Assembly: GCF_036860695.1 (NCBI RefSeq)
Contig: NZ_JAYKGJ010000001.1
Span: forward strand, 496,001-560,000
From: Rosettibacter firmus
GTDB lineage: Bacteria; Bacteroidota; Ignavibacteria; Ignavibacteriales; Melioribacteraceae
Length of the DNA stretch: 64,000 bases
Direction: 5' to 3'
A program made the position numbers and the translations under genes. Position 1 is the first letter of the stretch. Each line of letters opens with the position of its first letter. The notes below the pieces were generated by a model that made no database searches, was not told the origin of the DNA, and saw nothing but the letters and a program-made list of their open reading frames with translations. Of the stretch, positions 6,383 to 34,435 are shown piece after piece.

Positions 6383-9351
6383 AGTTGTTTCAACTTTTTA
6401 TTAGCTTCTACTGCGAATTCACCTTTTGGATGTCTAATAAGAACTGCTCTATACATTTCACGAGCAAGTTTTTTATCATTTAATTTTACATAGCAATCTC
6501 CAAGTCTAAGTAATGCTTTTGTATACCACTCATCATAAGCAGAAAAAATTGATCTAACTCTCACAAATGCAGTAATGGCTTCTTCAAATTTATTTTGATT
6601 AAACAATGCCAGTCCATAATAATATTGAGCCTGTGCACCAATATCATCAATTCTATTTTCAGCTGCTTCTTTTAATAATTGAATTGCATTTTCGTAATTA
6701 TTTCTTTGTAGTTCAAGAATTCCCAATTCAACTTTTGATTTAGCTGCAAATATATTTCCTTCATAATATGTAATAATCTGTTCAAATGTTGAGTAAGCAG
6801 ATTGAAGATCTCCATTCTTTGCTTCAGCTACTCCTCTTAAATATAAAAGCTCAGGGACACGATTGGATGTTGGAGCAGCATCAATTGAAGAATTAAGTAC
6901 TTTTATAGCAGAAGAATATTGCTTTTTATTCGAATAAATATTTGCAAGTTCAATTGTAGCAGAAATTCCAATATCAGATTTCTTTGAGATTTCCAGAACT
7001 TTGTTGAAATTTTCAATTGCTTCATTATCTTTTTTCATATTAGCAAAACTTTTAGCTATCCAGAAATAAGCATTCGGAACAAGTTCACTCTTGGGATACA
7101 ATTGTATAAAATCTCTATATGAACTTATAGCATTATTAAAATCATTGATGCTGTAGTAAATATCTCCTTTCTTAAAATAAATTTGATCGCTCAGTTTTAA
7201 ATTTGGATTTTGCTTAATAAAATGATCAATAAAATTTATTGCTTCAACAGGTTGATCTTTAGCTATATAAGAATATTGAATTCCATTTACAGCATCTATT
7301 ACATATTGTGTATAAGGGAATTCATCAAGAACTTTATTATAAAAAACAATTGCTGAATCGTAATTACCAAGATTATAATATGAATCTCCTATTGAATAGT
7401 ATGCTACAGGAATTAAATCTGATTTAGGAAATTTTTCGATTAAATGAAAATAATTTGCAATTGCTTTATAAAAATTACCTTGTTGAAAATATATCCATCC
7501 AACAACATATTGAGAAACATCCGAGTATTTTGAATTTGGAAATCTTTTCTGAAGATTAGAAAATTCCTTTATAGCATCATTAATTTTACCTGCTTTATAC
7601 AATGATTGACAGTATTGATAATAAGCCTGATCATTTTCAAGAAAAGTTTTATTACTTGAGAATAACTGACTGTAAATCATACTTGCTTTTTCAAAATTCT
7701 TAAGTGCATAGTAGCTATCAGCAAGTCTTAGTTTTATTTCATTTATATTTTTATCGTTACGATATTTATTCACATAATCGTTAAAGAAGTAGACGGCATT
7801 AGCAAAATCTTTTAAGTTAAAATATGCATATGCTTTACCTAACAATGTTTGCTTAATTATCAAATTATTTGAAGAATTGATTTTATTATAATGCTTTAAT
7901 GATGCAGCATATTCTTTTTTTGCAAAATAAGTTTCTGCCAGATAAAAATTAACTTTGTCATTTTCAAAATCATTATACTTTTTAAATAATTCTTCGAGAT
8001 ATATCAAAGCAGCATTAAAATTATTGAGATAAAATTCACTTATAGCAAGTCCAAGTTTAGCACGATTAGCAAGCTGGATGTCATTCGTAAAATATTTCAA
8101 TGCTGAAGTAAAATAATTTTTTGCTTCGATGTAATTATTTGCATTTAATTTCATTTCGCCAAGTAATGTATAAGCTCTACACTTTGTAGCATTATCACCA
8201 AGCACAGTAGCATTTATTAAAGATGATTCAGCTTCCTTTGATTGATTTGAAGTAAAATAGACAGTCCCTTTACCCAATTGTGCCTTCGAAGCTAAAGGAT
8301 GCGATGGATATTTTTCTAAAAACTTCTTATAAATTTCATCTGCTGTTTTTATATCGCCCAAGTATCTTTTACATTCACCGCTCCAGAAGTAAGCATTTAT
8401 AGAAATCGTATCAATTTCTGGTTCAGATAATTGTGAAAATATTTTGAATGCATTTTCATAATCATTAAGCTGGAATTTAGCCCAGGCAATGTTATAATTA
8501 ATTTTTCTCGTTAATTCTAATGATAAGTTTTCTTTTGAAAGTTCATTTAAAATCGAAATTGCATTTTGATAATCTTTAAGACGAAGATATGAGTTTGCCA
8601 GATAATATTTTGCTTGAATTAAATCATCCTTTGATAAATTTTTAATCAGAGGATTTGTTAGTTCCAGAATAGCACTATCATATTCTTTTAGATTGAAATA
8701 TGATATCCCTATTCTAAATTGTGCTTTTGGTGCAAGAGTATCTGTCTTGTAATATGATAATAATTGATCATAATAATCAACTGCCTTTCTATAATTTCCC
8801 ATATTTTCATAAAGCTGACCAAATGAATAAATAGTATTCACAATAAATTCATTACTACTATCATATTCAATTGCTTTTTGAAAATATTCTTCTGCTTCAA
8901 GATATCTTTTTTCTGCAGCAAAAGATTCTGCAATCCAGTAATATGCAGAGCCTTTAAATTTTGTTTGTGGATAAGTTATTGTTAATGTTAATAATCTTTC
9001 CCTGCATTTTCTATAGCTACCAATTTTAAAATATATTTCACCTAACTTATATAAAGTTTCTTCACGTAAGTAGGAGATAATTAGTTCATCATTTAAAAGT
9101 GATTCAAATGTAATGGCAGCTGCATCGAATTGTTTCATCTTTAAAAGGCAATCACCAGCATAGAATTTAGAAGTAAGCCTTTTTATCTCGTTAGTGTTAT
9201 CATCTAAATAATATTTTTCAAAAATCTTAAAAGCATTAGCATACTCTTTCTTATCATAAAACTTAAGTGCTTTATAAAACAAATCTTCATTTGATGCAGC
9301 TTGAAGATTAAGTAAAATTAGGGAGAAAAAAACTATTAATATTCTACGCAT
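6379..9351 (-). CDS. Large tetratricopeptide-repeat protein, exported
   Basis: 990 residues: a signal peptide (about 1-19) followed almost entirely by TPR units of 34-37 residues (recurring A..Y..IG.SYFNLKEYDSAI and FP.S...A.A.Y.IG patterns), some 20 or more by eye. Such solenoids act as periplasmic or outer-membrane scaffolds. The C-terminal part (LRLGDCYVKLNDKKLAREMYRAV) resembles the YbgF/BamD style of TPR. It is the first gene of the operon leading to the barrel, HU/SPOR, ExbB, ExbD and TonB genes, so it probably assembles or regulates that envelope complex (inference). Confidence 0.8.
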   Translation of the reverse strand: MRRILIVFFSLILLNLQAASNEDLFYKALKFYDKKEYANAFKIFEKYYLDDNTNEIKRLTSKFYAGDCLLKMKQFDAAAITFESLLNDELIISYLREETLYKLGEIYFKIGSYRKCRERLLTLTITYPQTKFKGSAYYWIAESFAAEKRYLEAEEYFQKAIEYDSSNEFIVNTIYSFGQLYENMGNYRKAVDYYDQLLSYYKTDTLAPKAQFRIGISYFNLKEYDSAILELTNPLIKNLSKDDLIQAKYYLANSYLRLKDYQNAISILNELSKENLSLELTRKINYNIAWAKFQLNDYENAFKIFSQLSEPEIDTISINAYFWSGECKRYLGDIKTADEIYKKFLEKYPSHPLASKAQLGKGTVYFTSNQSKEAESSLINATVLGDNATKCRAYTLLGEMKLNANNYIEAKNYFTSALKYFTNDIQLANRAKLGLAISEFYLNNFNAALIYLEELFKKYNDFENDKVNFYLAETYFAKKEYAASLKHYNKINSSNNLIIKQTLLGKAYAYFNLKDFANAVYFFNDYVNKYRNDKNINEIKLRLADSYYALKNFEKASMIYSQLFSSNKTFLENDQAYYQYCQSLYKAGKINDAIKEFSNLQKRFPNSKYSDVSQYVVGWIYFQQGNFYKAIANYFHLIEKFPKSDLIPVAYYSIGDSYYNLGNYDSAIVFYNKVLDEFPYTQYVIDAVNGIQYSYIAKDQPVEAINFIDHFIKQNPNLKLSDQIYFKKGDIYYSINDFNNAISSYRDFIQLYPKSELVPNAYFWIAKSFANMKKDNEAIENFNKVLEISKKSDIGISATIELANIYSNKKQYSSAIKVLNSSIDAAPTSNRVPELLYLRGVAEAKNGDLQSAYSTFEQIITYYEGNIFAAKSKVELGILELQRNNYENAIQLLKEAAENRIDDIGAQAQYYYGLALFNQNKFEEAITAFVRVRSIFSAYDEWYTKALLRLGDCYVKLNDKKLAREMYRAVLIRHPKGEFAVEANKKLKQL

Positions 9352-9468
9352 AATTATGATTTAATCTCTTATCAAAAATTTATGTATTTATAAAAAATAA
9401 TTTATAGAAAGTTCTAATTTTATTCTAAAAAAATATAAAAAGGGAATAAATGAAAGAGAATATTAAAA

Positions 9469-9487
9469 AGCCCTCTTAACGAGGGCT
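9469..9487 (-). terminator. Intrinsic terminator after the 252-residue TPR gene
   Basis: On the minus strand AGCCCTC, a 5-nt loop and GAGGGCT form a perfect 7-bp GC-rich stem followed by a run of T. It lies 4 nt past the stop of the TPR gene at 9492 and separates it from the large envelope operon, whose first gene starts at 9351. Confidence 0.9.
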
Positions 9488-9491
9488 AATT

Positions 9492-10250
9492 TTATTTAAG
9501 GAGTTTTAATTCATATTCAACTAATCGCTTATATTGTGGATCTCGTTTGGCAAGTTCAAAATTTTCTTTTGCTTTTGTGATATCATTTTTTTGTTTGAAT
9601 GCAAGACCTTTATAATAATAAGCTGCCCCTTTAAGTTTTGTTGTTTTCATATTTATGACAATATCTGCATTTTCAATAGCTTTATCGTAATCGCCATTTT
9701 CGTAATAAGTTGTAGCTAATAATACATATGCAGCATCAAGCTTATTATATTTGATAGCCTCATTTAAATTTTCTATTGCTTTTTGATAGTTGCCATCTTT
9801 TTTATTTGCTTCTGCCAGTTTTACATACGAACGAGCAATATTTAATTGTGCCTGTTCCTTAATAGCTTTTTGTTTTGTCAATTGCTCAAACTTTTTAAAG
9901 CTTTCTACTGCCTCCTGATATTTACCAGCCTGGAAATATGTTCCTCCCAAACCATTATATGCTAAATCAAAATTAGGATTGCTTTCAATAGAAGATTTAA
10001 AGGCAGCTTCGGCTTCGTCAAGTTTATTTTGTTTCTTTAATGTTACACCCAGTTGATAATAGATTCTATAATCTTTTGAGTGATTAAGTGCTTCTTTATA
10101 TTTTTTTACTGCTTCATCATAATTACCAGATTTAAGAAACTGATTTCCCTCATTATAAGCTTTAGCTGCTTCAGGTGGCATTTCTTGTGGGAGTATAACT
10201 GATACAAATAAAATTAATAGAGGGAAAATTAATAATGTTTTTTTAATCAT
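9492..10250 (-). CDS. Exported tetratricopeptide-repeat protein
   Basis: 252 residues: a signal peptide (about 1-21, ending ILPQ) and five to six TPR units (for example EGNQFLKSGNYDEAVKKYKEAL, AYYYKGLAFKQKNDITKAKENFELA). It is monocistronic, bounded by a strong terminator downstream and tRNA-Leu upstream on the same strand. It is likely a periplasmic protein-protein interaction scaffold with unknown partner. TPR repeats are certain; the role is not. Confidence 0.8.
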   Translation of the reverse strand: MIKKTLLIFPLLILFVSVILPQEMPPEAAKAYNEGNQFLKSGNYDEAVKKYKEALNHSKDYRIYYQLGVTLKKQNKLDEAEAAFKSSIESNPNFDLAYNGLGGTYFQAGKYQEAVESFKKFEQLTKQKAIKEQAQLNIARSYVKLAEANKKDGNYQKAIENLNEAIKYNKLDAAYVLLATTYYENGDYDKAIENADIVINMKTTKLKGAAYYYKGLAFKQKNDITKAKENFELAKRDPQYKRLVEYELKLLK

Positions 10251-19190: not shown

Positions 19191-20987
19191 ATGAAAAAAT
19201 TTTCATTCCTATTTTTAACATTTATTCTTTCCGCATCTCTTTTAGCACAAAAGAATTGGCTCAATTCAGAAATATCTCCTGAAGATATTAAAGCACACTT
19301 ATTTTACTTAGCTTCTGATGAAATGAAAGGAAGATTTTCAGGAACTAAAGAAGAAAAGAAGGCTGGCAATTATATAAAAGAGCAATTTTCTACTTATGGA
19401 TTAAAGCCTTTATTCAAAAACTCCTATTTCCAGGAATTTCAATTTATAGAAAAAATTGAATTAACAAAAAACAACAATGTTACAATTAAAATAAAGAATA
19501 AAGAAATTAAGTTAATTCCAAAAAAAGATTTTATAACAGCACCTTTTTCCGGGAAAGCCAAGAAAGAATCAAATCTTGTATTTGCAGGCTATGGTATATC
19601 TGCTCCAAAATTAAATTATAATGATTACGAAGGACTGGATGTAAAAAATAAAATTGTTCTTATTATGCGTGGACATCCTGAGCATGATAGCAGTCAATCT
19701 GAATTTGATAATTATTCTTCACTTAGATATAAAGCTTTAACTGCCAAAGAAAATGGTGCAATAGGAGTAATATTTGTTAATGGAATTTTATCTGAAAAAG
19801 AAGATAATTTCATTAAACTTCAATATGATGGTGCACCAGCTATAAAAGATTTCCCTGTTATTCAAATCAAAAGAGATATTATAAACAATATTCTGGAAAG
19901 AGAAGGTTTTGAATTTCAAAAAATTCAGGAACAAATAGATAAACAAAAAATACCTAATTCATTTGAGTTGAGTAACATAAAAATATCATTAAGTACAGAG
20001 ATTAAAGAAATAGAAAATACTGCAAGAAATGTAGCAGGTTATTTAGAAGGGAATGATTCATTATTAAAGAATGAATATATTGTAATAGGTGCTCATTATG
20101 ACCATCTGGGAATTGATCAACTACTTTCTTCATCACTTTACAAAGGTAAAGATAAACAAATTCACAATGGAGCTGATGACAATGCTTCTGGAACAAGTGG
20201 TTTACTTGAACTTGCAGAAAAATTTTGCTCACAGAAAGAACATTTGAAAAGAAGTATAATATTTATTGCATTCTCTGGAGAAGAATTAGGAATTCTTGGT
20301 TCTACATACTTCACAAATAATTTACCCATACCAAAAGAAAATATAATTGCAATGTTGAATATGGATATGATTGGGAGATTAGATTCAATAAAAAAACTTA
20401 CTATTATTGGAGCTGGAACATCTTCAATCTGGAAAGAGTTGCTAAAAAAATATAACAAATATGGTTTTGAATTATCTCTCAGCGATGCAGGTTCTGGTGG
20501 TAGTGATCATCAAGCATTTTTAAATAAAAATATTCCTGTTCTATTCTTCTTTACTGGAATACATTCGGACTATCACAAACCCAGCGATGACCCAGATAAA
20601 ATTAATTATGAAGGGGAAGCAGAAATTCTAAAATTTGTATTTGACATAGCAAACGAAATTCAATCCAGTGAAATTAAACCTGACTTTGTAAAAGTTGAAC
20701 AACTTAATCGCAACACTGCTCGTTCAAGAGTAACAGTAGGTACGATTCCAGAATTTGGTTATAACGGAGAAGGTTATAAAATTTCTGGCGTTACCGAAGG
20801 TGGACCTGCTGAAAAAGCTGGCTTAAAAGGTGGTGATATAATAATTAAATTTGGTTCGAAAAAGATTAATAACATTTATGATTTTATGTATGCATTATCA
20901 AGTTATAAAGCTGGTGATATAGTTGAGATTACTGTTTTAAGAGACGGCAATGAATTAATGTTTAATGTAGAGTTAATTGAAAAGTAA
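19191..20987 (+). CDS. Exported M28-family zinc aminopeptidase with PA and PDZ domains
   Basis: 598 residues: a signal peptide (about 1-20, ending LLAQ), an inserted PA-like domain (about 120-250), and the M28 catalytic core with zinc and catalytic residues in GAHYDHLG (H302), HNGADDNASG (D329), SGEELG (E364/E365), NMDMIGR (D392) and HSDYHKPSDD (H462). A C-terminal PDZ domain (about 512-597: EGGPAEKAGLKGGDIIIKFG) follows. It likely trims peptides in the periplasm or outside the cell. It ends the plus-strand run that begins with fur, 27 nt after the MBL gene. Confidence 0.9.
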   Translation: MKKFSFLFLTFILSASLLAQKNWLNSEISPEDIKAHLFYLASDEMKGRFSGTKEEKKAGNYIKEQFSTYGLKPLFKNSYFQEFQFIEKIELTKNNNVTIKIKNKEIKLIPKKDFITAPFSGKAKKESNLVFAGYGISAPKLNYNDYEGLDVKNKIVLIMRGHPEHDSSQSEFDNYSSLRYKALTAKENGAIGVIFVNGILSEKEDNFIKLQYDGAPAIKDFPVIQIKRDIINNILEREGFEFQKIQEQIDKQKIPNSFELSNIKISLSTEIKEIENTARNVAGYLEGNDSLLKNEYIVIGAHYDHLGIDQLLSSSLYKGKDKQIHNGADDNASGTSGLLELAEKFCSQKEHLKRSIIFIAFSGEELGILGSTYFTNNLPIPKENIIAMLNMDMIGRLDSIKKLTIIGAGTSSIWKELLKKYNKYGFELSLSDAGSGGSDHQAFLNKNIPVLFFFTGIHSDYHKPSDDPDKINYEGEAEILKFVFDIANEIQSSEIKPDFVKVEQLNRNTARSRVTVGTIPEFGYNGEGYKISGVTEGGPAEKAGLKGGDIIIKFGSKKINNIYDFMYALSSYKAGDIVEITVLRDGNELMFNVELIEK

Positions 20988-28707: not shown

Positions 28708-29862
28708 TTAATTGAGAACCTCTGCTATTCTCTCAATTGCAATATCTAAATCTTCGTAACTTATAACTAAAGGTGGAAGTAATCTTAACACTGTAGTACC
28801 ACCAGGCAATGTTACAATACCTTTTTTTAATAATTCAACAATAACAGGCTGCGACTTTTCTTTAAGTTCAATGCCAATCATTAAACCTATCTGACGAATT
28901 TCTCTAACTTTTGATAAAGGATATTTACTTAATTTTTCTTTAAAGTAATTCCCCTTTTGTTCAGCTTGTTCCCATAATTTATTTTCGAGCATAAAATCTA
29001 TTGCAGCAATTCCTGCAGCACATGCTAATGGATTACCTCCAAATGTAGAACCGTGTTTGCTTTTTTCTATTTTAATTTTATCTGAACATAAAACTGCACC
29101 CATAGGAAATCCACCTGCAATTGACTTTGCAAGAGTCATAATATCTGCTTCGATATCAAAATGTTCTATTGCAAACATTTTTCCTGTTCTACAAAAACCT
29201 GTTTGAATTTCATCAATAATTAAAATAATTCCTTTCTCATCACATAACTTTCTTACATTTTGAAAATATTCTTTTTTGCCAATATTTATTCCACCTTCGC
29301 CCTGCACCAATTCAAGAATAATTCCTGCAGTATCATCATCAACAGCTTCAGAGAGTTTTTCAAAATTATTATAAGGTACAAAAGTAAAACCTGGCACTAA
29401 TGGTTCAAATCCTTCTCGATATTCACTTTTGTATGTAGCACTCAAAGCACCCATAGTGCGTCCATGAAAACCTTTCATTGCAGCTATGAATTTTGTCTTC
29501 TTTGTTGTAAATCTTGCAAACTTAATTGCACCTTCTATTGCTTCAGTACCAGAATTTGTTAGAAATGCTTTCTTCAAATTTTTTGGTGCAATACTAAAAA
29601 GTTTTTCTAAGAATAAAGCCCTTTTATCATTATAAAAAGTATTAGCACATGTAATAAGTGTAGATGCTTGTTTAGAGATAGCATCAACAACTTTATCATT
29701 ACAGTGACCAACATTAGCAACACTAATACCTGCTGCCATATCAATATATTCATTCCCCTGATCATCCCATAAGCGTGCATCTTTCCCTTTAACAAAGACA
29801 ACATCACGCATTGGATAAACTTCTAATTCATATTGTTGCTGAAGCGTTTTATAATCTGTCAT
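28708..29862 (-). CDS. lysJ: LysW-gamma-L-lysine / acetylornithine aminotransferase (LysJ-ArgD type)
   Basis: 384-residue class III PLP aminotransferase (GTEAIEGAIKFAR, KGFHGRTMGALSAT, IIDEIQTGFCRTG, LAKSIAGGFPMGAV with the PLP lysine, GSTFGGNPLACAA). In a LysW cluster it would aminate the LysW-bound semialdehyde to LysW-gamma-lysine; homologous ArgD makes acetylornithine. I place the start at ATG 29862 (GAGG 6 nt upstream) instead of 29901, which lies inside lysZ and has no ribosome site. Being the last gene of the lysW operon favours LysJ; dual use for arginine is possible. Confidence 0.85.
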   Translation of the reverse strand: MTDYKTLQQQYELEVYPMRDVVFVKGKDARLWDDQGNEYIDMAAGISVANVGHCNDKVVDAISKQASTLITCANTFYNDKRALFLEKLFSIAPKNLKKAFLTNSGTEAIEGAIKFARFTTKKTKFIAAMKGFHGRTMGALSATYKSEYREGFEPLVPGFTFVPYNNFEKLSEAVDDDTAGIILELVQGEGGINIGKKEYFQNVRKLCDEKGIILIIDEIQTGFCRTGKMFAIEHFDIEADIMTLAKSIAGGFPMGAVLCSDKIKIEKSKHGSTFGGNPLACAAGIAAIDFMLENKLWEQAEQKGNYFKEKLSKYPLSKVREIRQIGLMIGIELKEKSQPVIVELLKKGIVTLPGGTTVLRLLPPLVISYEDLDIAIERIAEVLN

Positions 29863-29875
29863 ATAAACCTCATTT

Positions 29876-30667
29876 CTATGAAATAATTGTTCCTTTTCCA
29901 TTTAGAGCATCCAGAACAGGATGTTCGGTTCGCCCATCAGATATAATGACTGTAGTATTTCCATTTTCAAATAATTTTCTGAGTGCCAGAATTTTTCTTT
30001 TCATTCTGCCTTCAACTTTTTGTTCCATAGCTTCAAGTTCTTCTTTAGATAATTTAGATACCAATGAATTTTCATCATTTTTATCGAGTAAAAATCCTGG
30101 AGCTTCTATTAATGAAATAATTTTTTCTGCTTTAAATTCGCTTTGTAAGAGTGCAACTATGTCATCATTTTCTGAGTTTATTGCAAAATTATTTTCATCT
30201 ATTAAAGGGACACTTAAAACTGGTGTATATCCATTTTCAAGTAACAAATTCAATAAATGTTTATTTACAGATTTAGGTTTTCCAGAAAAATCGCGAAGTA
30301 ATAGAGTTTTTCCACCTTCACGAACTTTGATTCCACTATTTCTTTTTCCAACAATAATTTTTCCATCGAGTCCAGATAGTCCAACAGCATTTATTCCATT
30401 TTGCTGACATAATTCAACGATCCTTTTATTTTTTAATCCAGCATAAGCCATCATCATTAAATCAATTGTCTCTTCGTTACTCAATACAGAATCGTAACCA
30501 GATAGCGATGTTACAACTTTTTTCTGAATATTTAATTTTTGTGCTAATTCATCTCTCAATGCATTTGCACCATGAACGATTATTAATTTTTCATTCAAAG
30601 ATGCAAGATCGGATATAATTCCTTTCAGATTAATCTCTTTTCCTCCACCAATTTTAATCAAATACAT
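29876..30667 (-). CDS. lysZ: LysW-aminoadipate / LysW-glutamate kinase (LysZ, ArgB family)
   Basis: 263-residue amino-acid kinase (LIKIGGGKEIN at the N-terminus, LIIVHGANAL, GLSGLDGKIIVGKR, INSENDDIVALL, EGRMKRKI). The GLSGLDG and GRMKRK stretches match what I recall of Thermus LysZ better than typical acetylglutamate kinases. It phosphorylates the side-chain carboxylate of LysW-bound alpha-aminoadipate. It overlaps the amidotransferase gene by 10 nt. ArgB is the alternative name if the pathway were for arginine. Confidence 0.87.
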   Translation of the reverse strand: MYLIKIGGGKEINLKGIISDLASLNEKLIIVHGANALRDELAQKLNIQKKVVTSLSGYDSVLSNEETIDLMMMAYAGLKNKRIVELCQQNGINAVGLSGLDGKIIVGKRNSGIKVREGGKTLLLRDFSGKPKSVNKHLLNLLLENGYTPVLSVPLIDENNFAINSENDDIVALLQSEFKAEKIISLIEAPGFLLDKNDENSLVSKLSKEELEAMEQKVEGRMKRKILALRKLFENGNTTVIISDGRTEHPVLDALNGKGTIIS

Positions 30668-31302
30668 TTGAACTCCATTAATGATTTATTTGGTATTGGT
30701 TGCCAGTCTTTTTCATCTATAAATTTTTCTGAACAGACTAAAATTGTATTATCCAGAATTTTTTTATGCATAGTAAAATAATCAGGGTCTTCATTGAAAA
30801 ATGAATAAACATAAGCATAATTATTATCTGCGATTATAAAATTCATTGCTCTTACATAAGATGATTTCTTTTTAATTATATCAGTTCCTTTATTAATTGC
30901 ATCTTTTATATTTCCTTTATCAAAACGTTTTATATAATTAAAAATTTTTTCTGCACCAATTCTTCCTTCTTCTTTTATTTTAACACCACGTAATTCGCCA
31001 TTAAAAATAAAAATATACTTATCATCATAGAATGGCATATTGTTTTCTACAACAATGCCTTCATCTCTAAAAGCACTGCGAGCATGAGCAATTAATCTTT
31101 TTGTTTTACCAAATTGATTTAAGTTATCTTCCCATATTGGTTTTATATTTTTATAAAACTTCCAGTTTCCATTTTGTAAAAATGCACAACCCCAGCCGTG
31201 TCCCTGATATTCTTTACTTCTTTTAGAAATTTCAGCAAACTTTGTAAGATATTCTTCTACACTAAATTCTTCACTTGAATTTACATAAAGTAATCGACAC
31301 AT
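30658..31302 (-). CDS. Class II glutamine amidotransferase, YafJ-like
   Basis: 214 residues. After Met removal the N-terminal residue is Cys (MCRLLYV), the catalytic nucleophile of Ntn-type glutamine amidotransferases. HARSAFRDEGIVVENNMPFY and FIFNGELRG are the family's active-site stretches. No synthase domain is attached, so it is a stand-alone domain like YafJ/Gat-type proteins. It sits between lysY and lysZ (10-nt overlap with lysZ), which suggests a role tied to lysine synthesis or nitrogen supply; that role is unknown. Confidence 0.8.
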   Translation of the reverse strand: MCRLLYVNSSEEFSVEEYLTKFAEISKRSKEYQGHGWGCAFLQNGNWKFYKNIKPIWEDNLNQFGKTKRLIAHARSAFRDEGIVVENNMPFYDDKYIFIFNGELRGVKIKEEGRIGAEKIFNYIKRFDKGNIKDAINKGTDIIKKKSSYVRAMNFIIADNNYAYVYSFFNEDPDYFTMHKKILDNTILVCSEKFIDEKDWQPIPNKSLMEFKCI

Positions 31303-31343: not shown

Positions 31344-32390
31344 TTAAATTGGATGAAGACCTGGAAATTCAAGTCCAGTTTTTTCATCAAAACCAAACAT
31401 AATATTAAATGCCTGTAAAGCCTGTCCTGCAGCTCCCTTCATTAAATTATCAATAGCACTTATTACAACTAAACGATTTGAAAATTCATCTTTTTTAAAT
31501 CCAATATCACAATAATTAGTACCAATTAATAATTTGGGCTCAGGATAGCGATAAATTCCTTCACTTTCTTTAACAATACGAATAAATGGTTCATTACCGT
31601 AAGCTTCGCGATAAATTTTCCAGATATCTTTTTCATTTAAATTTTCTTTAAGAAAAACGTGGCATGTTGCAAGTAATCCTCTTACAATATCAATTGCAGT
31701 AGCAGAAAAATGAATCTGAATTTTTTTACCAAAAGATAACTCCTGTAAAATTTCAGCTGTATGTCTATGTTGAGTTGGCATGTATGATCTTACAACTCCA
31801 CTTCTTTCAGGATGATGAGAGCCTTCGTTTACTTTATTACCACCTTCACTTGAACCAACTTTTACTTCAATCACTGTTCTATCTTCTTCAACCAAACCAT
31901 TTTTATACAATGGATATAAACCAAGTATACTTGCAGTTGCATTACATCCAGCACTTGAGATATAATTAGATTTTTTCATTTCTTCGCGGTGAAGTTCAGG
32001 AATACCATAAACAAATTCATTTAATAAATCTGGGCGAGCATGTTTATGACCATACCATTTTTCATATTCAGCAGGATCTTTTAATCTAAAATCTGCACTT
32101 AAATCAATAATTCTTGGAGCAATTTTTTTGAAAGAATCAATTTTATTTTGAGAACTATTATGAGGTAGACAAAGGAATAATAAATCACATTCCTCAAGTT
32201 CATTTATAGAATTAAATTTAAGAGTTGTTGATTTACGTAAATTAGGATGAATTTTGTGAACAAATTTGCCTGTATTACTTTCTGATGTTACTTGTTTAAT
32301 TTCAACAAAAGGATGAAATAGGAGTAATCTTAATAATTCACCACCAGTATAGCCAGAAGCACCTACAATTGATACTTTAATTTTTTCCAT
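31344..32390 (-). CDS. lysY: LysW-aminoadipyl-phosphate reductase (LysY, ArgC family)
   Basis: 348 residues: NAD(P)-binding GASGYTGGELLRLL (10-23) and the catalytic cysteine C149 in SSAGCNATASILGLYP. ArgC enzymes usually have a PGCYPT version; the GCNAT form is that of LysY. SHHPERSGVVRSYMPTQHRH carries the family's active-site histidine. It reduces the LysW-bound acyl phosphate to the semialdehyde. It directly follows lysX with no gap. Confidence 0.88.
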   Translation of the reverse strand: MEKIKVSIVGASGYTGGELLRLLLFHPFVEIKQVTSESNTGKFVHKIHPNLRKSTTLKFNSINELEECDLLFLCLPHNSSQNKIDSFKKIAPRIIDLSADFRLKDPAEYEKWYGHKHARPDLLNEFVYGIPELHREEMKKSNYISSAGCNATASILGLYPLYKNGLVEEDRTVIEVKVGSSEGGNKVNEGSHHPERSGVVRSYMPTQHRHTAEILQELSFGKKIQIHFSATAIDIVRGLLATCHVFLKENLNEKDIWKIYREAYGNEPFIRIVKESEGIYRYPEPKLLIGTNYCDIGFKKDEFSNRLVVISAIDNLMKGAAGQALQAFNIMFGFDEKTGLEFPGLHPI

Positions 32391-33236
32391 TTACTTCTCC
32401 TCTGCAACTCTCAAAATATATTCAACCATTTTTTTAGGAATATTAACACCTGTGGTATGGATACTATTTTTATATTCCATAGTATAATTAACTTCATTTA
32501 CCATCAATCCATTTTCTGTTTCAAAAATATCGATAGCAACAATACCTCCACCAACAGCTTTAGCAGCTCTTAATGAAATATCTCGCAATTCATCAGTAAC
32601 AGGACAATTAGTAGCAATTCCACCTCTTGCAGTGTTTGTTATCCAGTGAGGAGAATTTCTATAAATTGCAGCAATGCATTCATCACCAACAACAAAGCTA
32701 CGAATATCTCTACCTTTCTTTTCAACATATTTCTGAATATAAAAGATTGAATGATGATAAGAGCCAAGAATAGTTTTATGTTCAAGTATAGCTTCTGCAG
32801 CATCACGATCATTTATTTTGGATAGTAATCTACCCCATGATCCAACAGCTGGTTTAAGAACTACTGGATAACCCATTTCTTCAATTGCCTTAAGAGCAGA
32901 TTCTTCTGTAAAAGCTACTCTAACTTCAGGTTGTGGGACGTTATGCTCTGCCAAGGCTATAGAAGTTAAAAGTTTATCACCACAAATAGTTGCAACACTA
33001 TATGAATTTACACATTTAACACCTGCTGCTTCAAAAAGTCTCAAGCCATGAAGTGCTCGTGAATGATTGATGCATCTTTCTACAAGAACATCAATGTCAA
33101 ATTTATCTTTGCCGAGTGTGAAAGTTATTTCACGGTCATCAATCATTACTAATTCTACACCTTTTATTGCATTAAATTCATCGATTAATAACTTTTCATC
33201 TTTTCTTAATAATGAATGAAGCAATCCTATTTTCAT
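32391..33236 (-). CDS. lysX: LysW--alpha-aminoadipate ligase (LysX, RimK-type ATP-grasp)
   Basis: 281-residue ATP-grasp ligase that attaches aminoadipate to the C-terminal Glu of LysW. Visible family features are [45 protein letters not shown], and the metal/substrate motif [11 protein letters not shown]. These match Thermus LysX as I recall it along most of the length. Substrate (aminoadipate versus glutamate) cannot be settled by eye; homocitrate synthase upstream favours aminoadipate. Confidence 0.9.
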
Positions 33237-33277: not shown

Positions 33278-34435
33278 TCAGTCTTGTTTATAGGTTTGAT
33301 GATGTTTAACAGCATCGACGATGTGTTTAAGCTCGGTAAGATCAACAGTTCGTCCACGTTGACCAACGGATTTTACTTCCTGCAAAATATCAAACTGAAT
33401 TGTTTCATCGAGTTCTGATTCACCAATCAATTTCAGAGCATACCTTAAAGATGCAATACCAGACATATGATCTAAAGCAAAACTTCTTTCTCTTCCTACG
33501 ACTGCAGGGTTCAAGCTTTCATAATGCATTGGATTAATAGAAGCAGCATGAGTGTGTACACCAGCACAATGTGTAAATGCATTCTTACCAGTAATCGGGA
33601 AATTAGAAGGGATTGGAATTCCAGAATGTTTACTTACAAGATCATAGAGTTCTATCAATTTAGGGAGATTCCATCTATTTTCCCCAAAATCCACAGATAG
33701 AACAACTAATAGTTGAGCAAGATCAACAATACCTGCTCTTTCACCAAGACCAAGAGCAGTTGCATCAATAATATCTACTCCAGCACGATATGCATCAAGA
33801 GCATTTGCTAATGCTAAGCCTCTATCGTTATGGCAATGTACAGCAACTTTAGGATTTAAATTTCGTTTATTAAATTCTTCTTTCAATCTTGATATATAAT
33901 CATACATACTTCTCTTACCGGGTATCATAAAGCCAGTTGTGTCTGCCACACTAATAATGTCTGCACCTGCTTCAACAGCAGCTACAGATGCTTTAACAAC
34001 ATTATCGAATTGCGATCTTACAGTATCTTCAGGTGTATAACGAATTAATAAATCTGGCTTCTGAGACTTTGCATATTTGATTATATCTGTAATTTGTTTA
34101 ATTGCTTCATCCAAATCTTTTTTAAAGACATTATTTAATCTTTCATCAGAAACACAATAAAACACACCTATAAACTTTACCCCGCATTCAAGAGCAAGAT
34201 CAACATCTTGTTTTAAGGATCTGGAATGAGCACCAACAATAGCATTAAAATTTTTCTGTGCTATGGCTTTTACAGCTGCATGAATTTCGGGTGTAACCAT
34301 GGGATGACCGGCTTCGATAATATCAACGCCAATCTCATCTAAAAGATTTGCTATAGCGAGCTTGATGTGCTTATCAAAATAAACCCCAGGGGTTTGTTCC
34401 CCTTCTCTTAAAGTTGAATCTAATACCCAGACCAA
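33278..34435 (-). CDS. Homocitrate synthase (isopropylmalate/homocitrate synthase family)
   Basis: 385-residue DRE-TIM barrel enzyme: STLREGEQTPGV at the N-terminus (catalytic Arg and Asp region), VHCHNDRGLALANALDA (metal-binding HxH), and GxNAFTHCAGVHTHA. It condenses acetyl-CoA with 2-oxoglutarate to homocitrate, the first step of the alpha-aminoadipate pathway. The start is TTG directly after the lysW stop, with GGGGAG about 6 nt upstream inside the lysW tail. The family also contains 2-isopropylmalate and citramalate synthases; the lysWXYZ context decides for homocitrate synthase. Confidence 0.82.
   Translation of the reverse strand: MVWVLDSTLREGEQTPGVYFDKHIKLAIANLLDEIGVDIIEAGHPMVTPEIHAAVKAIAQKNFNAIVGAHSRSLKQDVDLALECGVKFIGVFYCVSDERLNNVFKKDLDEAIKQITDIIKYAKSQKPDLLIRYTPEDTVRSQFDNVVKASVAAVEAGADIISVADTTGFMIPGKRSMYDYISRLKEEFNKRNLNPKVAVHCHNDRGLALANALDAYRAGVDIIDATALGLGERAGIVDLAQLLVVLSVDFGENRWNLPKLIELYDLVSKHSGIPIPSNFPITGKNAFTHCAGVHTHAASINPMHYESLNPAVVGRERSFALDHMSGIASLRYALKLIGESELDETIQFDILQEVKSVGQRGRTVDLTELKHIVDAVKHHQTYKQD

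Follow-up and report, generated by a model that had tools for sequence, protein, structure and literature searches.

A class II amidotransferase-fold amidohydrolase in the LysW gene clusters of bacteria and archaea as a probable non-homologous replacement of LysK

The release of products from the LysW carrier protein is the step of LysK/ArgE, a [LysW]-lysine/ornithine hydrolase belonging to the M20 metallopeptidases, whose mechanism is metal-dependent. LysW carries its cargo on the γ-carboxyl group of its C-terminal Glu, in a tail ending in EDWGE (PMC10433800). Two enzymes described outside this pathway offer points of comparison for the locus reported here. EgtC is described as an Ntn amidohydrolase that takes the glutamyl residue off a γ-glutamyl intermediate in ergothioneine biosynthesis (PMC9103826). 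Dop, in turn, is the deamidase and depupylase of Pup, which some species encode with Gln at its C-terminus, and is described as a glutamine-synthetase-like, ATP-primed enzyme (PMC8599861).

The window, i.e., the whole stretch of 64,000 nucleotides from Rosettibacter firmus that was analysed, harbored a LysW operon on the minus strand (Table 1), in the order lysW, a homocitrate-synthase-like gene, lysX, lysY, an amidohydrolase gene, lysZ and lysJ, followed by ORFs that resembled nuo genes by eye. No lysK was present in this operon. LysW, LysX, LysY, LysZ and LysJ each scored above some curated cut-off, LysY as argC and LysJ as argD, and the homocitrate synthase fell below its own; the aminotransferase also remained below the cut-off of the LysJ model NF042418 (456.5 bits, cut-off 700). 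Since a LysW with the EDWGE tail (C-terminus ...EEDWGE) and LysX/LysY/LysZ/LysJ were found within one cluster, the operon was assigned to the LysW-dependent pathway, and it is assumed to supply the lysine of the cell. The γ-carboxyl group of the terminal Glu of LysW is expected to be the attachment site, which would make LysW the substrate protein of the amidohydrolase. The first-pass annotation had described a stand-alone gene of the Ntn amidotransferase type, with Cys2 as its catalytic residue, located between lysY and lysZ and overlapping lysZ by 10 nt. The ORF, its Pfam match and the coordinates confirmed this description: the ORF started with ATG, encoded a single-domain protein of 214 aa with the N-terminus Met-Cys2-Arg-Leu-Leu, and its 3′ end shared positions 30658-30667 with the start of lysZ.

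Table 1. Features of the LysW operon in the window.
Feature	Position	Strand	Remark
LysW carrier protein, 55 aa	34436..34603	-	TIGR01206 82.5 bits, cut-off 53.2; ATG chosen by eye
Homocitrate-synthase-like enzyme (LysS/Hcs)	33278..34435	-	HMGL-like and HCS_D2; TIGR02146 349.4 bits, below cut-off 413.55
LysX, loads amino acid on LysW	32391..33236	-	TIGR02144 363.8 bits, cut-off 275.6
LysY (ArgC-like reductase)	31344..32390	-	TIGR01850 419.1 bits, cut-off 233.6
LysW-cluster Ntn amidohydrolase (class II GATase fold)	30658..31302	-	Proposed non-homologous LysK replacement
LysZ, [LysW]-aminoadipate kinase	29876..30667	-	NF010659 247.6 bits, cut-off 223
LysJ-like aminotransferase	28708..29901	-	TIGR00707 435.1 bits, cut-off 410.05

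At E<=0.001, the Pfam matches of the window protein were GATase_4 (PF13230; 25.0 bits, cut-off 23) and a sub-cut-off RNase_T, with none to M20, which places the protein outside the LysK family (TIGR01902, M20). Its sole NCBIfam match at the same threshold was EgtC (TIGR03442), with 48.2 bits against a curated cut-off of 218.65, a score that also leaves it outside the EgtC family. EgtC entries were likewise the nearest solved structures by sequence, weakly so (phmmer E 0.0068, profile E 0.0012). The AlphaFold2 model of the protein (pLDDT 93.0) gave EgtC as the best structural match over nearly the full length (Foldseek E 5.9e-12; VIA-align Z 24.3, rmsd 2.1, 201 aligned), at an identity of only 17-18%, with GlmS and PurF among the class II enzymes that followed. 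This model, together with the occurrence of Cys2 in 81 of 81 family members, indicated a class II GATase/Ntn hydrolase fold with an N-terminal Cys. Like the window protein, EgtC (PDB 4zfj/4zfk/4zfl) presents the Ntn fold and the N-terminal Cys nucleophile, and it is a stand-alone hydrolase cutting a γ-glutamyl amide. Unlike it, EgtC acts on a small-molecule substrate and keeps, by eye, an Asp (...TVDSAILA) where the LysW-cluster family has Gly, and no egt gene was found among the proteins of the window's operon.

The residues of the active site were compared between the LysW-cluster family, comprising the window protein and 80 relatives (n=81), and ten other class II proteins, of which seven were plasmid-borne and three were GATase_6 proteins of the window's genome. 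Cys2, His73, Arg75, Asn101, Gly102 and Glu118 were identical in all 81 members of the family, and Arg75, Asn101 and Gly102 were also found in 10/10 of the other proteins. Where 10/10 of the latter had the Asp of a D-S/T-E motif, 81/81 of the LysW-cluster family had Gly116; the His of H-N-G (10/10) was replaced by Phe100, and the His preceding Pro90 (8/10) by Met89. These three substitutions also set the family apart from the GATase_4 class II glutamine amidotransferases, such as PDB 3mdn and 1te5, with which it has the G-W-G, H-x-R, N-G and Glu118 positions in common. In GlmS, an Asp (Asp123) holds the α-amine of free glutamine and an Arg holds its α-carboxylate. We take Asn101-Gly102 to be the Asn-Gly of the oxyanion hole and Arg75 to be the Arg for the α-carboxylate, and Gly116 presumably occupies the position of the Asp that binds the α-amine of free glutamine. 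By this alignment, the Asp expected of an amidotransferase using free glutamine is replaced throughout the family. Because the contact on the amine side alone was lost, the active site would suit a γ-glutamyl group with a free α-carboxylate and a peptide-bonded α-amine, as found at the C-terminus of LysW, and the Asp-to-Gly change fits, as far as sequences can tell, an adaptation to a peptide-bound γ-glutamyl group at this terminus.

The placement of the gene was found to be conserved far beyond the window. A scan of genome contigs with a profile of 19 sequences was used to keep the best 80 of 245 relatives, nearly all of them from MAGs, whose taxon names may be loose. All 80 of these best-scoring loci had at least one LysW-pathway neighbour, which was lysJ only in L175, and, where the stretch permitted, LysZ lay directly downstream in 76/77 and LysY directly upstream in 72/78. 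Thus, the recurrence in other lysW clusters, which the first-pass annotation had proposed to survey, was evident among these best 80 of 245 relatives. By record title, the kept loci belonged to nine named phyla, i.e., Ignavibacteriota (30), Pseudomonadota (13), Bacteroidota (8), Calditrichota (7), Myxococcota (4), Woesearchaeota (3), Binatota (2), Chlorobiota (1) and Planctomycetota (1), with 11 unplaced. In L175 (KSB1; 7923-9799), the gene was found directly before lysJ, and no lysZ, lysY, lysX or lysW occurred within the fetched 16.6 kb.

Among 116 genomes sampled from the order of the window, LysW scored above the cut-off in 35, and the amidohydrolase gene was found in all 35. The gene was also present in G369, in which the contig stops within the homocitrate-synthase gene, and one TAA was observed inside the matched stretch of the gene in G363 and in G371. 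Three genomes of the order presented a sub-cut-off LysW and no amidohydrolase gene: G312, with a lone LysW, and G322 and G373, with lysJ and lysW remnants, accompanied in G373 by a short piece of lysZ. The remnants of the pathway in the latter two indicate that the gene was lost together with the pathway. In these two genomes, which belong to one genus, only lysJ and lysW of the cluster were left (L194 of G322, 7039-8665; L195 of G373, 8367-9954); G336, G379 and G383, of the same genus, carry the gene, G336 with the whole cluster, which points to a recent loss of the pathway. A survey of 296 genomes of the phylum revealed the gene in 15, of which 14 belonged to the order and one (G014) shared only the class, with the same cluster order of lysW, homocitrate-synthase gene, lysX, lysY, amidohydrolase gene, lysZ and lysJ. 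In the phylum of the archaeon AR15, LysW was detected in 5 of 279 genomes and the gene in all five, two of which (G416 and G418) were known beforehand. Among 398 Pseudomonadota genomes, LysW occurred in one, namely the chosen centre of the survey, so that this survey carries no independent weight.

LysK showed the opposite distribution. In the window's genome, which is listed as 99.98% complete, TIGR01902 gave no match at E<=1e-5, and the seven Pfam M20 hits were a dipeptidase, two beta-Ala-His dipeptidases, PepT and three M28 peptidases. Above its cut-off, this model matched none of the 116 genomes of the order, versus 4 of 14 control genomes, and none of the 40 genomes behind other loci. When the ORFs of the 80 kept loci were compared with a query set that included a LysK of Deinococcus sp. 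NW-56 and four further M20 stretches, none was matched best by an M20 protein (E<=1e-5). Positions 19191-20987 of the window, on the plus strand, encode a peptidase of the M28 family that carries PA and PDZ domains and was weakly matched by the M20 model.

In Planctomycetota, a LysW match was obtained in 25 of 294 genomes, of which 21 were tested further, G1163, G1177, G1183 and G1353, with matches of 25-29 bits, being left out. Both models were applied to 27 genomes (20 Planctomycetota, the gene-bearing G405, five archaeal genomes and one gammaproteobacterium), and LysK without the gene was found in 18, the gene without LysK in 7, both in none and neither in 2. Within Planctomycetota, 18 of 20 LysW genomes had LysK and 0 of 20 the gene, in contrast to G405, which had the gene and no LysK. 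The genomes with neither were G1276, which contained a 156.9-bit LysK piece, and G1147, with a lone LysW ending in WSE. For 12 of the 20 Planctomycetota, the sequence fetched around the cluster contained LysK; wherever both lysY and lysZ were found they were adjacent, leaving the amidohydrolase gene no room, as was also the case in Deinococcus NW-56. An unusual LysK-type cluster was observed in L255 (G1122, Planctomycetota), whose LysY fell on a long branch (0.77) inside the amidohydrolase-type part of the LysY tree, possibly reflecting a switch of the release enzyme.

Matches of M20 proteins to TIGR01902 below the cut-off were frequent. They were found at E<=1e-5 in 98 of the 116 genomes of the order, whether or not these carried the gene, at E<=1e-20 in 14 of the 40 other genomes (best 115.9 bits, cut-off 163.1), and in three of the seven gene-bearing genomes (G441; G473, best 117.4 bits; G390), and it is possible that such a protein acts on LysW in the genomes that hold one. 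A loose first look, in turn, yielded zero LysK candidates in G416 (Archaeon GW2011_AR15) and G527. The first-pass annotation had suggested checking whether the genomes with the gene lack lysK, and had named a normal LysK elsewhere in the genome, together with no recurrence in other lysW clusters, as the outcome that would refute its reading. Neither was observed, as the gene and an above-cut-off LysK were never found in the same genome and the gene recurs. The annotation's proposal that the protein releases products from LysW by amide hydrolysis, i.e., the role of LysK, is therefore strongly supported by both the recurrence and the LysK exclusion. The two enzymes would share the same step, the same pathway and the same kind of cluster, but they belong to unrelated sequence families, one being an M20 metallopeptidase and the other a Cys-dependent Ntn hydrolase, and were never found together in the tested genomes.

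The carrier itself provided a further clue. LysW ended in Gln in 17 of the 60 clusters with the gene and in Glu in the other 43, as opposed to none ending in Gln among 23 LysW without the gene, a narrow contrast because the latter come mostly from one phylum (20 Planctomycetota, one of them the lone LysW ending in WSE, one Deinococcus and two Streptomyces plasmid loci; the Streptomyces locus L203 and five plasmid LysW hits, H42-H46, were left out of the count). The three solved LysW sequences end in Glu. Among the rows of the LysY tree (n=81), Gln-ended LysW occurred in 17/60 with the gene versus 0/21 without it (Fisher p 0.004), and a separate count in the order, with genomes partly overlapping those of the main count, gave 7/30. 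The Gln codons were CAA or CAG and preceded different stops. Gln-ended LysW was found in records named Ignavibacteria, Calditrichota, KSB1 and Gammaproteobacteria and in two genomes of archaeal phyla, as well as in Stygiobacter electus 09-Me (L148). At least 10 changes between Glu and Gln were counted on the LysY tree, six of them forced by starred branches, and all among gene-bearing rows. As the gene-less rows span about the same tree length (14.1 versus 13.3), the chance of such a pattern would be ~0.001 for 10 changes and 0.02 for six, rough figures since the rows are related, the gene-less L255 lies among gene-bearing rows and the tree is partly open.

From the conservation and clustering of the gene, its exclusion of LysK, the predicted fold, the active-site substitution and the Gln-ended carriers, we infer one reaction on two substrates. 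The amidohydrolase very probably replaces LysK, hydrolysing LysW-γ-lysine (perhaps also the ornithine form), and it probably deamidates Gln-ended LysW where this is present. Cys2 would attack the amide between the γ-carboxyl group of the C-terminal Glu of LysW and the α-amine of lysine; lysine, or perhaps ornithine in some lineages, would leave, and water would then free LysW-Glu for another round. A Gln-ended LysW is presumably not loadable before its deamidation, and in the lineages that encode it the same enzyme would turn LysW-Gln into LysW-Glu, because the bond is the same, with ammonia as the leaving group. This deamidation of the carrier is, on the evidence of the tails, a likely second role. 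The proposed logic resembles that of Dop, in which one enzyme both deamidates a small protein at its C-terminal Gln and severs its bond to the cargo; however, Dop is glutamine-synthetase-like and ATP-primed, and no homology with the LysW-cluster amidohydrolase is claimed. We consider the chances evenly balanced that these clusters represent a widespread second LysW pathway of bacteria and archaea, in which a single Ntn amidohydrolase, following a Dop-like logic with an unrelated fold, both matures LysW-Gln and releases lysine or ornithine.

If LysK is indeed replaced in this way, the missing last step of lysine (perhaps arginine) synthesis would be filled in many LysK-less genomes with LysW clusters, a conserved family for which the scanned libraries contain no dedicated curated model would receive a function, and carrier release in the LysW pathway would have been solved twice by unrelated enzymes. 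The Gln-ended LysW also leads to a measurable prediction on the mass of LysW before versus after the enzyme, including in Stygiobacter electus 09-Me.

Other readings of the same gene were considered. The enzyme could act solely as a deamidase that makes a ligatable LysW-Glu, the product being released by another, unrecognised hydrolase; the restriction of Gln-ended LysW to clusters with the gene and its repeated changes on the LysY tree agree with this. However, most LysW of the gene clusters (43/60), the window's included, already end in Glu, so that no deamidase is needed there, and neither the mutual exclusion with LysK nor the want of any LysK-like candidate in G416 and G527 favours a deamidase working beside a separate hydrolase, a scheme that we regard as very unlikely. 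A division of labour of another kind, in which the amidohydrolase recycles wrongly loaded LysW as a quality control and a cryptic M20 enzyme is the true product hydrolase, could draw on the sub-cut-off relatives of LysK that many of these genomes contain. It meets the same two genomes with zero first-look candidates, and in the window's genome the M20 hits of Pfam were other peptidases and TIGR01902 matched nothing at E<=1e-5, which makes this division highly unlikely.

The first-pass annotation had also contemplated ammonia supply, i.e., a glutaminase feeding an enzyme of the LysW pathway or of its neighbourhood. The class II amidotransferase fold and the kept Cys2 are what such an enzyme would have, but no synthase domain and no ammonia-taking partner were evident among the proteins of the operon, the closest relative with a solved structure is a hydrolase, the Asp that would bind the α-amine of free glutamine is Gly in the whole family, and the exclusion of LysK would be left unexplained; a supplier of ammonia thus has a very slight chance of being correct. 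The annotation's last option, a passenger gene in the operon, is contradicted by the same placement in bacteria and archaea and because G322 and G373 lost the gene along with the pathway, and it is scarcely credible.

In 41 of the 80 loci (L105-L184), no homocitrate-synthase gene was seen within the sequence fetched, which was short in some cases, and the pathway product there may be lysine or ornithine. Ten proteins neighbouring clusters without homocitrate synthase (L137, L143, L170 and L172) gave no link to arginine genes at E<=1e-30; they were two amidases, an EutA-like protein, a PEP carboxykinase, a formate-THF ligase and an MFS transporter, the remaining four having no match. Searches of an open-access library, which lacks most subscription papers, brought up no report of the LysW-cluster amidohydrolase. 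The available text on the Caldithrix abyssi genome places LysWXZYJ and Hcs in one locus and the remaining genes of the pathway at scattered positions, with no mention of the amidohydrolase gene (PMC5317091), and the 'lysW' of a paper on lysine riboswitches is an antiporter and not the LysW carrier (PMC5584792). Finally, two tandem LysX-like genes were observed in three amidohydrolase clusters (L166, 5146-6944; L217, 4193-5889; L218, 9557-11465). They resemble the separate LysX and ArgX of Sulfolobus, and by this analogy a single carrier may be used for lysine as well as for ornithine in these clusters.
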